Origin: a virus
Strand: one strand, 5' to 3'
DNA length: 30,543 bases
IMG/VR virus record: IMGVR_UViG_3300023481_000009
Coordinates: 1-30,543 of that record
Shown: positions 9,714-30,543 of the stretch, piece after piece
Layout: every line of letters starts with the position of its first letter
How positions within the stretch are numbered: position 1 is the first letter of the stretch
The notes under the pieces: generated by a model
Databases searched by the model: none
What the model was told of the DNA's origin: nothing
What the model saw: the letters and a program-made list of their open reading frames with translations, nothing else
Translations under genes and position numbers: made by a program

Positions 9714-10072
9714 GCTGGGCCGATGATTTAAATAGACTCGCCAAGAAAGGCGGACATGATTTGAAGAGAGTGGCCCGTGCTGTAAAGATAGAGTTGTTTA
9801 GCGGGATTGTTATGGATACTCGGGTAGACACAGGACGGCTTCGGGGTAACTGGCAGATACAAGAGAACCGGCCAAATAAAAGCACCTTAGACAGGCTTGA
9901 TAAAACAGGCACGGCGGTTACATCTGAAGTCATTAAAAGAGCATCTTCTGACGGCCTCACCTTTTTTACTAACAACCTGCCTTACGCTAAGAGGTGGGAA
10001 AATACCGACGGCATGGTAGGGCGTAATGTGGCAAGAGTTAGAGAGATAGTCAGACAAGAGGCCGCTAAATGA
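9710..10072 (+). CDS. Neck/tail completion protein, HK97 gp10-like
   Basis: A 120-residue protein. ATG 9710 overlaps the upstream stop as ATGA and is preferred to the ATG at 9695, which lies further inside the previous gene. The sequence VDTGRLRGNWQI followed later by NNLPYAKRWENTDGMVGR is the typical gp10-like pattern (T-G-x-L-R-x-x-W, then N-x-x-P-Y-A). These proteins sit at the neck and help tail-tube attachment. Confidence 0.75.
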   Translation: MSWADDLNRLAKKGGHDLKRVARAVKIELFSGIVMDTRVDTGRLRGNWQIQENRPNKSTLDRLDKTGTAVTSEVIKRASSDGLTFFTNNLPYAKRWENTDGMVGRNVARVREIVRQEAAK

Positions 10073-25939: not shown

Positions 25940-25968
25940 AGTATACACCTATAGGTATATAGTGTCAA
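25940..25968 (-). promoter_or_regulatory. Leftward promoter with palindromic operator candidate
   Basis: On the reverse strand TTGACA (25968-25963) and TATACT (25945-25940) are separated by exactly 17 bases. The spacer contains the perfect palindrome ACCTATAGGT (25947-25956), extended by TATA arms to 25942-25961. A dimeric repressor bound there would block the promoter. Regulator unknown. Confidence 0.65.
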
Positions 25969-26012: not shown

Positions 26013-26041
26013 TTGACATCCATTCCCTTTTGTAGTCTAAT
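26013..26041 (+). promoter_or_regulatory. Rightward early promoter
   Basis: TTGACA at 26013-26018, a 17-base spacer, then TCTAAT at 26036-26041 (five of six). Start expected near 26048. It is back to back with the leftward promoter and should drive the early genes from 26230 through the replication region. Confidence 0.7.
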
Positions 26042-26047
26042 AAGTAT

Positions 26048-26179
26048 AGGGAGACAAAATGAACAATCACACTAAAATAGATTATACGAATTGCACGGGG
26101 CGGCCTTCTTGTCTCCCGACTTTTAACCCCCCGTGTGGTAGCGCAAAGGGTCTCTTAGTTTAATCGCTGAGAGGCCCTT
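26048..26179 (+). promoter_or_regulatory. Structured leader with crossing stems and a 13-bp hairpin
   Basis: GGGAGAC (26049-26055) complements GTCTCCC (26111-26117), and CACGGGG (26094-26100) complements CCCCGTG (26129-26135). The two pairings cross, so they either form a pseudoknot or alternate. GGGAGA is also the ribosome-binding site of the small ORF at 26059, so the first pairing would hide it. A separate stem pairs 26146-26158 with 26167-26179 (13 pairs, two G-U), with no clear U run. Likely an attenuator or translational switch. This, with the two promoters and AT-rich DNA, fills the 345-base gap between 25884 and 26230. Confidence 0.45.
26059..26163 (+). CDS. 34-residue leader peptide candidate
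   Basis: ATG 26059 has GGGAGA five bases upstream and encodes 34 residues (starts MNNHTKIDYTN, contains PSCLPTF and NPPCGS). It lies wholly within the structured leader, and its ribosome-binding site is part of a long-range stem. It may be a real leader peptide or a chance ORF. Confidence 0.3.
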   Translation: MNNHTKIDYTNCTGRPSCLPTFNPPCGSAKGLLV

Positions 26180-26229
26180 CCTTGCGTTTAACCTTTTAGA
26201 CACCCTATGTGTCATAGGAGGGACAAACC

Positions 26230-26628
26230 ATGCCTCAGATATGCGATACCGCATTATTTAAGCCTATTCCTTGCCCTGCGTGTAAGCAAAGGTTCACACC
26301 ATTAAGGAGTTGGCAGAAGTTTTGTCAACCCGCCTGTAAAAAGACATTCAGGGTTATGGCAATCCACGAGGGGGAAAAGAGGTTGATGAGTAAGGGTACC
26401 CATTATGCCAAGATTGATAAGTCCCCCCGCCTTCAACGTCTCCTTTCCCTGTTACAACAGTCCCCACGGACTACAAGGGAGATTCAGGAGCTTGCGGAGG
26501 TTCGGGCGGTCTCTGCGTCGGTGACGGAGCTGAGGCGGAACGGGTATATAATCGACTGCGATTACGTCGGGCTATCCGAGCAAAGAGAGAGAGTTTTTCT
26601 CTATACGATAAAAGGGAGGATAAAATGA
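26230..26628 (+). CDS. Zinc-finger plus winged-helix protein, possible early regulator
   Basis: A 132-residue protein with AGGAGGG before ATG 26230. Residues 15-36 hold CPAC then CQPACKK, a four-Cys zinc finger of the kind found in many phage and plasmid proteins. Residues about 65-125 form a winged helix (RLLSLLQQSPRTTREIQELAEVRAVSASVTELRRNGYIIDC...). It is the first gene of the rightward early operon and so a candidate DNA-binding regulator, possibly the operator-binding factor. Function is inference. Confidence 0.7.
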   Translation: MPQICDTALFKPIPCPACKQRFTPLRSWQKFCQPACKKTFRVMAIHEGEKRLMSKGTHYAKIDKSPRLQRLLSLLQQSPRTTREIQELAEVRAVSASVTELRRNGYIIDCDYVGLSEQRERVFLYTIKGRIK

Positions 26629-27764: not shown

Positions 27765-28436
27765 ATGAAGAATATGGAGATATGGGATAAGCTACGTACC
27801 CCTCCGAAGACAGCCCTTAAAAAGATAACAGGGGGCAGGTTGAAGGGTATGACAGATATAAAACCTCAATGGCGTTATCGGGCTATGACAGAACAGTTTG
27901 GCCCATGTGGAGAGGGGTGGTCTTACACCATCGATAAATTATGGACAGAGGCCGGCACAGATGGGCAGGTCTTTGTGTTTGCCCTTGTGAGCGTCACCGT
28001 CAATGGATGTAAACCTATTCAGGGTTGTGGTGGCAGTATGCTTATCGAAAAGCAGAAAAGTGGTTTGCATCATAATGACGAAGCCTATAAAATGGCTATC
28101 ACCGACGCCTTATCAACGTCTCTAAAAATGTTAGGAGTTGGGGCTGATGTTTACGAAAACATAACAGAGAGTAAATATAATACTCGTTCCGAGTCGTCTA
28201 ATGGCAGGACAACTGGTTTTGAGCCCGTTAATGGAGGTTCGACCCCTCCCTCGGAAACCAAGAAGAAACTCACGTCTGAGGATATCAAATATTTTCAATC
28301 CATGACCGAACAGAAGAAACGTCTCGGAGAGGCTATATACTATGAGACCCTTGCACAGTGTGGGTTCGGCCATTGTAACGAGGCGACAACAAGGGAACAG
28401 CGGGTTTCCCTATATAACGTAATGATAGCGAGGTAA
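27765..28436 (+). CDS. Rad52-like single-strand annealing protein (Sak family) with embedded tRNA
   Basis: A 223-residue protein. Residues about 1-135 fit the Rad52/22-like Sak core: WRYRAMTEQFGPCGEGWSYTI, then VFALVSVTVNG, then NDEAYKMAITDALSTSLKMLGVGADVY. The C-terminus (about 165-223) is a small helical domain. Between them residues about 142-165 (SESSNGRTTGFEPVNGGSTPPS) are the translation of a tRNA gene at 28187-28260, not typical protein sequence. The protein anneals complementary ssDNA coated by SSB, which is encoded next. The reading frame is unbroken across the tRNA. Confidence 0.8.
   Translation: MKNMEIWDKLRTPPKTALKKITGGRLKGMTDIKPQWRYRAMTEQFGPCGEGWSYTIDKLWTEAGTDGQVFVFALVSVTVNGCKPIQGCGGSMLIEKQKSGLHHNDEAYKMAITDALSTSLKMLGVGADVYENITESKYNTRSESSNGRTTGFEPVNGGSTPPSETKKKLTSEDIKYFQSMTEQKKRLGEAIYYETLAQCGFGHCNEATTREQRVSLYNVMIAR
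28187..28260 (+). tRNA. tRNA-Gln (TTG), inside the annealing-protein gene
   Basis: A 74-nt cloverleaf can be drawn base by base. Acceptor TTCCGAG (28187-28193) pairs perfectly with CTCGGAA (28250-28256), then A257 and an encoded CCA (28258-28260). D stem GTCT/GGAC has a GG-containing loop. Anticodon arm ACTGG/CCCGT has one T-C mismatch and the loop TTTTGAG, giving anticodon TTG (28219-28221), Gln. T arm GGAGG/CCTCC has the loop TTCGACC. It overlaps a reading frame that continues on both sides. A functional tRNA, a captured fragment or an attachment-site remnant are all possible. Confidence 0.85.
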
Positions 28437-28442
28437 CGAGAG

Positions 28443-28820
28443 ATGGTAAACAAGGCAATAATTATAGGCAGACTTTCAAGAGATGTAGAGATTCGATATA
28501 CTCCCGCTGGCAATGCCGTTGCCAACTTTAGCGTGGCGACGAATGAGAAGTATAAAAATAAGGCCGGGGAAAAAGTGGAGACCGTGGAATTCCACAACGT
28601 CATCGCATGGAACAAACTCGGCGAGATATGCGGGGAATGGCTCCGCAAGGGTCAGCTCGTTTACATCGAGGGAAAATTACAGACCAGCAAATGGGATAAG
28701 GACGGCGTGACCCATTACAAAACCGAGATAGTGGCTCGGGAGATGAAAATGCTCGGTGGGAGTGCAAAGACTGACAACACATCACAGGAGCCCGACGACG
28801 ATGACTCAATCCCCTTCTGA
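28443..28820 (+). CDS. ssb: Single-stranded DNA-binding protein
   Basis: A 125-residue protein. Residues 1-105 are the OB fold: MVNKAIIIGRLSRDVEIRYTPAGNAVANFSVATN, VEFHNVIAWNKLGEICGEWLRKGQLVYIEGKLQT, YKTEIVAREMKMLG. The tail is acidic and ends DDDDSIPF, the conserved SSB tip that contacts partner proteins. It protects ssDNA and works with the adjacent annealing protein. Confidence 0.96.
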   Translation: MVNKAIIIGRLSRDVEIRYTPAGNAVANFSVATNEKYKNKAGEKVETVEFHNVIAWNKLGEICGEWLRKGQLVYIEGKLQTSKWDKDGVTHYKTEIVAREMKMLGGSAKTDNTSQEPDDDDSIPF

Positions 28821-28893
28821 TTGGCACGCCTTAGACCAAGACCCGCCGCCGCCCGATAACAACGGGTATGATGATATATGGAGGGAAACATGA
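28801..28893 (+). CDS. 30-residue ORF overlapping the ssb end
   Basis: ATG 28801 is within the SSB acidic tail codons in another frame and encodes MTQSPSDWHALDQDPPPPDN and ten more residues. The stop overlaps the next ATG (ATGA at 28890). Translational coupling makes it plausible, but it is Pro/Asp-rich and short. Confidence 0.4.
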   Translation: MTQSPSDWHALDQDPPPPDNNGYDDIWRET

Positions 28894-29156
28894 ACGACGA
28901 AGAGAAGAAAATACCAGAGAGAACGCAGATGTCAATAGATAGATATGTTAATCATGGAACACGACCCGGTCATTTTTTAGAGGCAGTTATGTCAAATGAC
29001 CTCTTTGACGCTATCGGCAGGGCAGACAGGGAACATTTATATTGTCTGCGGGAGATTTGTTCTTATATCTACAATCATATCCCGTTAGACGCTTGGGGCT
29101 CAAGGGAAAGAGTTAAGGCATGGGAAGGACAACTTACAAAGGAGGTAGCCAAATGA
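28890..29156 (+). CDS. Conserved-looking hypothetical phage protein
   Basis: An 88-residue protein. ATG 28890 is preferred to ATG 28878 because GGAGGG at 28880-28885 lies 4 bases before it. The sequence YVNHGTRPGHFLEAVMSNDLFDAIGRADREHL...YNHIPLDAWGSRERVKAWEG looks like a widespread phage family of unknown function with the PGxFLxAVxxNDL signature. Its first codons (MNDEEKKI) reappear at the start of the next gene. Overlaps that gene by 4 nt. Confidence 0.7.
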   Translation: MNDEEKKIPERTQMSIDRYVNHGTRPGHFLEAVMSNDLFDAIGRADREHLYCLREICSYIYNHIPLDAWGSRERVKAWEGQLTKEVAK

Positions 29157-29317
29157 AAAACATGAACGACGAAGAAAAGAAAATACAACCCGCCCACTTC
29201 TGCCCATGTGGACGTGAGACACAGCCCGGGCATTACCTTTGTGATGATTGCACAGAGGAGAAGGCGAGGGACGCAAGGGAGATGGAATTTAACAGGGCAA
29301 CCAAAGGGTTCTACTAA
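29153..29317 (+). CDS. Small zinc-binding protein
   Basis: A 54-residue protein from ATG 29153 (overlapping the previous TGA, with GGAGGT at 29141-29146; an in-frame ATG at 29120 is upstream of that site). It contains FCPCGRETQPGHYLCDDC, a four-Cys zinc knuckle, between charged helices. Its early codons (MNDEEKKI) repeat those of the preceding gene almost exactly. Confidence 0.65.
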   Translation: MKNMNDEEKKIQPAHFCPCGRETQPGHYLCDDCTEEKARDAREMEFNRATKGFY

Positions 29318-29328
29318 AGGGAGGCAAA

Positions 29329-29712
29329 ATGTATTCATTCACGTTTCTGACCAAGAAGGGTAGGATATCAAGACTCATGTATTGCCGCCGCTGTCACAAG
29401 ATAAAGCCCTACGAAAGGGGAAAGTTTTTTTGCTCTACACGGTGCTATAAAAAGTGGTGGACAAAGCTCTTAAACAGAATGAGAAAAAAGGCCGTCTATC
29501 CCGAAGAATATCTTGACCGTATCCGTTATCTTGAGTCTCAACTTAACAGCGCATGGGAAGACATGCCCAAGGCAAGAAAGAAACTCCGTGAGGCTTATAA
29601 ATGGGTAACGGATAAGCAGTTAGACCTTTGCTGGGAGAGGGGCATTGTTCCTTGTCAACAGCGCCCCGAGATTATCGGTGGGGCAAAGGATAAGGTATTC
29701 AATGAAGATTAA
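29329..29712 (+). CDS. Zinc-finger protein
   Basis: A 127-residue basic protein. Residues about 19-39 are CRRC then FFCSTRCYKKWW, a zinc knuckle like those in phage and MYM-type fingers, followed by a long Lys/Arg-rich helical region (LNRMRKKAVYPEEYLDRIRYLE). GGGAGG precedes ATG 29329. A nucleic-acid-binding role is likely; the target is unknown. Confidence 0.65.
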   Translation: MYSFTFLTKKGRISRLMYCRRCHKIKPYERGKFFCSTRCYKKWWTKLLNRMRKKAVYPEEYLDRIRYLESQLNSAWEDMPKARKKLREAYKWVTDKQLDLCWERGIVPCQQRPEIIGGAKDKVFNED

Positions 29713-29983
29713 ACTCATTAAGTGTGAGCCATATCACATGAGAACCCTGCCCCGCTCATGCGCCCAGCTCCACCTAAAGGCGCACTATCTCCATAACGTG
29801 AAAAACAGGACGTTGAGGGAGTGGGGGCTGATGACCTTGATAGACGTTAGGCCCTGCCTGGACTGTGAGGACGGTAAGAAGAGGGCCCGGGCCGTGGTGG
29901 TCTGTAAGAAGTGCTACCGTTGGCCCGTGAAGAATGGGCTCTGCGGGGTTTGTAGTAAGAGAAAAAAGGTAAAAAAAGATTGA
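29702..29983 (+). CDS. Small basic zinc-binding protein
   Basis: A 93-residue protein from ATG 29702, overlapping the previous gene by 11 nt; the longer ATG at 29645 would lie far inside it. It has PCLDCEDGKKRARAVVVCKKC and then LCGVCSKRKKVKKD, three CxxC pairs in a zinc-ribbon pattern, and a Lys-rich tail. The terminal codons run into the promoter at 29980. Confidence 0.65.
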   Translation: MKIKLIKCEPYHMRTLPRSCAQLHLKAHYLHNVKNRTLREWGLMTLIDVRPCLDCEDGKKRARAVVVCKKCYRWPVKNGLCGVCSKRKKVKKD

Positions 29984-30007
29984 CACCTTTTGGTGATGTG
30001 GTAATAT
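29980..30007 (+). promoter_or_regulatory. Promoter before the replication gene
   Basis: TTGACA at 29980-29985, 16 bases, then TAATAT at 30002-30007 (four of six). Start near 30014, exactly at the 5' arm of the stem described for the small RNA. Confidence 0.55.
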
Positions 30008-30013
30008 AGGTAT

Positions 30014-30134
30014 ATGGCACAGAGTATGAAGAGCATATATAAGTTTATCAACTTCCCCTGTCCGGGTGAAGACATAAAGACCCTCTCGGTTGCTCTGTGC
30101 CAACATAGCTCACCGGGGGGGTTCTTTTTGTTTT
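30014..30134 (+). ncRNA. Candidate small RNA or attenuator with pseudoknot potential
   Basis: GGCACAGAG at 30016-30024 is exactly complementary to CTCTGTGCC at 30093-30101. AACTTCCCC (30050-30058) pairs with GGGGGGGTT (30115-30123), continued by GGTGA/TCACC (30065-30069 and 30110-30114), and is followed by CTTTTTGTTTT, the form of a terminator. The two helices cross. GTTG/CAAC (30089-30092, 30101-30104) would close a hairpin that presents CTCTGTGC in its loop to pair with the 5' end. Between a good promoter and a U-rich end, this looks like a discrete RNA or a transcription attenuator ahead of the replication gene. Confidence 0.45.
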
Positions 30135-30148
30135 GGAGATAGTCATAA

Positions 30149-30543
30149 TTGAAATGGTTTAAGCATTATACCGACTCGCTTGACGACCCATTTATTCAGG
30201 GATTGATGGATGAATTTTCCCACCTTGGATACGTCGTTTTCTTCGGATTGATAGAAATTATCGCTAAAGAAAATGGCAACGAAGTCACAGGAGTGTTGAC
30301 CGTTAGTCCGGCATATCTCCGACGGAAGCTCCGCACTACTCCGACAAGAGTCCGACAGGTGTTGGACTACTGTCAGACACATGGCCGACTAACGGCGGAC
30401 TATTCTGGAAAAGAGTGGGAGTTGTGTTTCGCTAAGATAGCGAAAATAAAGGATAACTATACAAAAAACTTGCAAGCCTCTGGCAAGAAACTTTCCAAGC
30501 ATAAAGAGAAAGAAGAATATAAAGAAGAGAAAGAAGTAAAGAG
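30149..30543 (+). CDS. Replication initiation/DnaD-like protein, N-terminal part
   Basis: A TTG start at 30149 with GGAG at 30135-30138 opens a frame that runs off the right edge (about 131 residues seen). It begins MKWFKHYTDSLDDPF and continues FSHLGYVVFFGLIEIIAKENGNEVTG...SPAYLRRKLRTTPTRVRQVLDYCQTHGRL, a winged-helix profile of phage replisome organiser or DnaD-like N-terminal domains (KWFKH... start is common in them). A Lys/Glu-rich linker follows. It lies downstream of the small-RNA candidate, so that structure could control it. Class assigned by pattern; the catalytic or C-terminal part is missing. Confidence 0.7.
   Translation, partial: MKWFKHYTDSLDDPFIQGLMDEFSHLGYVVFFGLIEIIAKENGNEVTGVLTVSPAYLRRKLRTTPTRVRQVLDYCQTHGRLTADYSGKEWELCFAKIAKIKDNYTKNLQASGKKLSKHKEKEEYKEEKEVK

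Follow-up and report, generated by a model that had tools for sequence, protein, structure and literature searches.

The stretch of DNA analysed here (30,543 nt, hereafter the window) is a 30.5-kb tailed-phage fragment that carries genes for terminase, SSB, Gp157 and a Rad52-like protein and breaks off within a replication gene. The product of the latter contains a Lin1244_N domain (PF14297; 29.7 bits against a cut-off of 25), and its 60%-identical relative in L105 matches phrog_2562, which PHROG annotates as a replication initiation protein. Upstream lie the SSB gene (28443-28820) and an ORF at 29705-29980 for which no homologues were found. Elsewhere in the neighbourhood, a tRNA-Gln (TTG) gene (28187-28260) sits inside a Rad52/exonuclease-like ORF (27765-28436) whose frame runs through the tRNA as SNGRTTGFEPVNGGSTPPS, which reflects either a tRNA insertion truncating the ORF or a recently integrated tRNA; and two neighbouring ORFs start with nearly identical 29 bases (AAACATGAACGACGAAGA.., 28886-28914 and 29158-29186), a recent duplication of a gene start. 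The segment leading into the replication gene contains the following features.

29980-30007, plus strand: sigma-70-type promoter, TTGACA (29980-29985), 16-nt spacer, TAATAT (30002-30007), predicted start at about 30014
29984-29995, no strand assigned: perfect palindrome CACCTTTTGGTG across the -35 and spacer
30005-30015, plus strand: TATAGGTATAT, spanning -10/+1, with an exact copy at 25950-25960 in the divergent early promoter region
30015-30026, plus strand: 5' strand of stem S1 (UGGCACAGAGUA) at the transcript 5' end, partner 30091-30102
30055-30069, plus strand: competing partner (CCCCUGUCCGGGUGA) of the terminator 3' arm, 30110-30122
30079-30090, plus strand: 5' arm of terminator stem S2 (GACCCUCUCGGU), partner 30112-30123
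30091-30102, plus strand: 3' strand of S1 (UGCUCUGUGCCA), within the terminator loop, partner 30015-30026
30112-30123, plus strand: 3' arm of S2 (ACCGGGGGGGUU), partner 30079-30090
30123-30134, plus strand: U-rich terminator tail (UCUUUUUGUUUU)
30135-30138, plus strand: Shine-Dalgarno GGAG of the replication gene
30149-30541, plus strand: replication gene, TTG start, continuing past the window end

The promoter bears out the consensus -35 of the original prediction and supplies a -10 to go with it. The palindrome across its -35 is a possible operator. Likewise, the early-region copy of TATAGGTATAT sits within a palindrome of its own (25942-25961), and the presence of the same sequence at both promoters possibly marks a shared operator of one regulator. 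A search for an antisense promoter over the leader gave only weak minus-strand matches, directed away from it.

The two stems are interleaved. S1 comprises 12 bp (10 Watson-Crick pairs, one G-U and one further A-U) and absorbs the exact 9-bp complementarity, 30016-30024 with 30093-30101, from which the original prediction had started; its 3' strand occupies the S2 loop, so that the predicted match between a hairpin loop and the transcript 5' end holds as well. S2, also of 12 bp with 8 GC-type pairs, closes a 21-nt loop that is longer than usual and runs into UCUUUUUGUUUU, a GC-rich stem followed by a U-tract as in an intrinsic terminator, although a standard terminator scan limited to loops of 3-8 nt missed it. 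About 25-26 nt separate this stem from the replication-gene start. A crossing GC-rich stem and a U-rich end had also been claimed, and both are present; the GC-rich pairing of 30055-30069 with 30110-30122 is, however, a competitor for the 3' arm, for which 30079-30090 is the better 5' arm. With that adjustment the observation of a promoter, 5'-end pairing, crossing stem and U-rich end is confirmed. The 121-nt fold reaches -43.6 kcal/mol (z = -4.0), equalled in 0 of 200 shuffles. Taken alone the S1 helix is not significant: the window contains just 3 perfect helices of 10 bp or more with strands 20-90 nt apart, S1 among them, where shuffles average 1.4. The crossed-stem combination is far beyond chance: scanning both strands of the window for the H-type topology returned 2 matches on the plus strand and 0 on the minus strand, compared with 0.025 per shuffled strand.

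The other of these matches heads the early operon (26049-26139), and both begin at predicted transcription starts. It first drew attention as part of the region with the strongest predicted folding in the window; the same pair was later recovered by the unbiased scan. Its features are as follows.

26013-26041, plus strand: promoter match, TTGACA-17-TCTAAT
26049-26057, plus strand: S1 5' strand (GGGAGACAA), at the predicted start
26090-26100, plus strand: S2 5' arm, from the topology scan
26109-26117, plus strand: S1 3' strand in the hairpin loop (UUGUCUCCC), from the topology scan
26129-26139, plus strand: S2 3' arm, with no U-tract after it
26146-26179, plus strand: 14-bp hairpin ahead of the first early gene (26230), its tail weakly terminator-like

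No other part of the window folds as strongly as the early-operon leader (26048-26230; z -5.4 for 26050-26260), in which three hairpins follow one another. It may also contain a short ORF, for which the pairing strand would be the GGGAG ribosome site. No homologues of the first early gene were found.

Blastn against phages and 30 related records found no sequence homologue of the replication-leader element; classical covariation in homologues was therefore not applicable, and recurrence was sought by layout. A match had to combine a long-loop terminator and a U-tract with a helix joining the loop to RNA upstream, and its score was a stacking energy with no promoter term. Given that the score was devised after the window and the second element had been seen, tests are also given without them where stated. 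The layout exceeded threshold in 7 of 50 distinct regions upstream of replication-gene relatives (the window, L111, L126, L141, L143, L145 and L152), that is, in only about 1 in 7, and in 0 of 1140 shuffled sequences. Without the window, the comparison stands at 6/49 against 6/741 control regions, which lie upstream of other ORFs on the same contigs (Fisher p = 2.9e-5), and two of those six control matches (L106 and L107) do have the layout, in early-operon leaders. Similarly, long-loop terminators pair their loop with upstream RNA (p<=0.01) in 8 of 14 replication leaders versus 15 of 323 elsewhere, and in 6 of 12 replication leaders once the two seeds are removed (p = 2.1e-5).

The matches share the layout on unrelated sequence: L106/L107 (in the leader of the first early gene), L111/L112, L126, L141, L143, L145, L152, L056/L162 and L063. 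The last, in the record of a 46%-identical replication-gene relative, is a 12-bp example at an early promoter, divergent from a repressor gene that looks CI/LexA-like when its sequence is judged by eye. L056 was found only through a shared 9-base seed, in a scan of viral contigs for GGCACAGAG..CTCTGTGCC that otherwise returned mostly unrelated CCACAGAGGCACAGAG palindromes; its layout lies 26 nt ahead of a gene that we take, from a recognised N-terminus and with no Pfam or PHROG family confirmed, to be a replication gene of a different type. The palindromes, CCACAGAGGCACAGAG..CTCTGTGCCTCTGTGG, recur in many unrelated viral-labelled contigs (L034-L038, L043, L045-L048, L050-L054, L057-L060) at no more than 3 per contig, in apparently intergenic positions, and form a repeat family that may be bacterial. 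A weaker layout was discerned by eye in L165 and is not significant in the loop/upstream pairing test. The 60% relative in L105 has a large hairpin, but one without 5' pairing and without a U-tract. This hairpin (9886-9967) has a stem of 17 bp or more and a C-rich loop of 47 nt (CCCTCCCCC); it directly precedes the replication-gene ribosome site AGGAGG..GGGGG and is possibly a translational relative of the attenuator. No element was found in Vibrio phages with a related replication protein, and the few Lin1244_N genes present in about 690 bacterial genomes include none with the layout.

The promoters provide a further test, as they played no part in selecting the matches. In 4 of 13 matches a promoter scoring at least 9/12 has a predicted start no more than 3 nt from S1; at random nearby positions the rate is 1.8%. 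The coincidence persists without the window (p = 0.001). The promoters of L126 and L106 score 11/12, with starts 6 nt inside and 10 nt before the S1 strand, respectively, and among chance matches in control contigs 0 of 10 have a promoter score of at least 8.

Considered alone, the two stems are near-isoenergetic (S1 -18.3, S2 -18.2 kcal/mol). Equilibrium folds of the growing transcript, made with nested models, place S1 as the best structure from emergence of the loop until 3 nt before S2 is complete, and the other members tested behave similarly with the exception of L162, in which S2 never takes over. In these models this is the behaviour of an attenuator near its balance point. At equilibrium the full transcript favours S2 (-41.2 vs -36.1 kcal/mol forced), and antitermination must therefore be kinetic.

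The architecture of a switch is well supported by the sequence, and the element is probably a bistable transcription attenuator in the replication-gene leader, controlling entry into expression of the replication gene. If region 1 is the transcript 5' end, region 3 the terminator loop and regions 2 and 4 the arms of the intrinsic terminator, then 1:3 would form first in the emerging RNA and keep regions 2 and 4 apart, and the terminator 2:4 would replace it only once region 4 is complete; because the stems are nearly equal in stability, the alternation of 1:3 and 2:4 would make a switch. Anything that blocks pairing of region 1 with region 3 would favour termination and keep replication off. 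The terminated RNA of about 120 nt, which contains both strands, could possibly pair in trans with the 5' end or the loop of a new nascent transcript, and by promoting termination it would provide dosage-dependent negative feedback or immunity in the manner of the CI RNA of satellite phage P4. The second element, whose own stem has no U-tract, would place the same 5'-end pairing at the front of the early operon.

The original prediction had offered a small RNA and a terminator governed by a competing stem as alternatives. The terminator is the better supported by leader position, recurrence at replication genes and the hand-over between stems; the small RNA remains compatible with it, as termination would yield just such a product of about 120 nt. 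That this product should instead be a stand-alone phage small RNA, with the replication gene served mainly by upstream readthrough and the loop or 5' strand acting as a seed for other targets, is unlikely. The compact promoter-terminator unit would suit such a role, for which there is a precedent in Gifsy-1 IsrK, a terminated prophage small RNA whose target in trans is its own readthrough mRNA, but recurrence is tied to replication and early-operon leaders rather than to free intergenic sites, and conservation of a loop target was not seen.

Still less probable is a stable 5' pseudoknot with both stems formed, bound by a phage protein such as SSB or the replication protein for autoregulation, or shielding the 5' end of the mRNA, with the leader pseudoknot of T4 gene 32 as a parallel. 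A pseudoknot design had been part of the original prediction, and here the topology does permit both stems at once: the crossed-stem loops of 52, 0 and 9 nt would allow the two 12-bp stems to stack coaxially, and an SSB gene lies upstream. Against this, the third loops of L126 (-3 nt) and L141 (0 nt) leave little room for both stems, which are sterically unlikely to coexist there, and mutually exclusive stems are therefore more likely than a permanent pseudoknot for the class as a whole; nor would such a role need a terminator tail. A cis-acting RNA for processive antitermination at the beginning of early transcripts, of the HK022 put kind, is very improbable. It would fit the presence of a copy at the 5' end of two early-region transcripts and of terminator-like hairpins after the second, but put consists of two adjacent hairpins of conserved sequence with no pairing between 5' end and loop, whereas the element takes its pairing strand from the terminator loop itself and no sequence is conserved. 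Finally, an ordinary small coding gene (ATG 30014 to TAG 30142, 42 aa, ending 6 nt before the replication gene) is hardly credible even though the frame is open and tightly packed, given that it has no homologue (best E 0.7) and no strong ribosome site, that its C-terminus, GGFFLFW, merely reads the G-run and U-tract, and that it leaves the paired strands unexplained.

More broadly, the preferred reading of a bistable attenuator invites a larger, tentative proposal: that phages have a widespread, sequence-free class of RNA switch in which early or replication transcripts can pair their exact 5' end with the loop of the terminator in the same leader, so that every terminated leader is a self-antisense RNA through which phage copy number is sensed and type-specific immunity conferred. 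Such a class, if real, would be defined by pairing only, and its members would be free to diverge and to escape sequence-based searches for RNA families, which would account for the absence of such leaders from RNA family libraries. Few cases are known in which RNA alone controls phage replication, the main one being P4. A pairing-based rule finds such leaders without sequence similarity, and under it a 10-bp strand would be enough to predict copy-number feedback or the specificity of immunity.

The Rfam/Infernal check proposed with the original prediction returned no family for the element at gathering score: against release 15 (4227 families) the window yields only the tRNA at 28187. Relaxing the threshold added only sub-gathering chance matches for both elements, and L162, L141 and L165 have no match at gathering score. 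Several known systems offer parallels. The leader of T4 gene 32 places a 5' H-type pseudoknot on a phage replication-gene mRNA, and the element, with its crossed stems at a similar position, may resemble it; the T4 structure is a translational operator with no intrinsic terminator, which the element has. Attenuation of plasmid rep genes of the pT181/pIP501 type likewise uses a replication-gene leader with alternative pre-emptor and terminator pairings. There a separate antisense promoter operates and the terminator arm is paired, whereas in the element it is the loop of the terminator that is complementary to the 5' end, and the search over its leader gave no obvious antisense promoter. Gifsy-1 IsrK, which is encoded in a prophage and reported to be structurally homologous to the P4 SeqA RNA, has a short terminated RNA and a long readthrough mRNA from one promoter, as predicted for the element; it activates translation of an antirepressor ORF, where the element would terminate transcription before a replication gene, and its sequence is Salmonella-specific.

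The closest comparison is with P4, in whose lysogens expression of the replication genes is blocked by premature termination, the CI RNA pairing with seqA and seqC (PMC4825925). The element similarly lies in the leader of a replication gene, with premature termination as its predicted output, and its internal strand is complementary to an upstream leader strand (30015-30026 with 30091-30102) as seqB is to seqA. The promoter/pseudoknot scanner gave no match in the P4 genome, and no sequence similarity was found between P4 and the element. A direct list of P4 helices yielded complementary strands TTCACAGG (8651), TCCTGTGAA (8464) and TTCACAGGA (8376), which, judging by position, we take to be the published seqA, seqB and seqC. 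In P4 about 190 nt separate the paired strands, the helices have 8 to 9 bp, and processing of the leader yields CI RNA; in the element, the pairing strand is in the loop of an intrinsic terminator and its partner is the exact 5' end. A seqC-like site was not detected in the window (loop/ribosome-site pairing p = 0.65 for the element and 0.08 for the second element), and such pairing was rejected as a general rule, having been found only in L106/L107. In L106 (3933-4075) the terminator loop has two 11-bp partners, the transcript 5' end and the next gene's ribosome site; these three strands together resemble seqA-seqB-seqC, and the window element has only the first two. Membership of the P4 system is not claimed for the element, yet by analogy its functional likeness to that system appears good.
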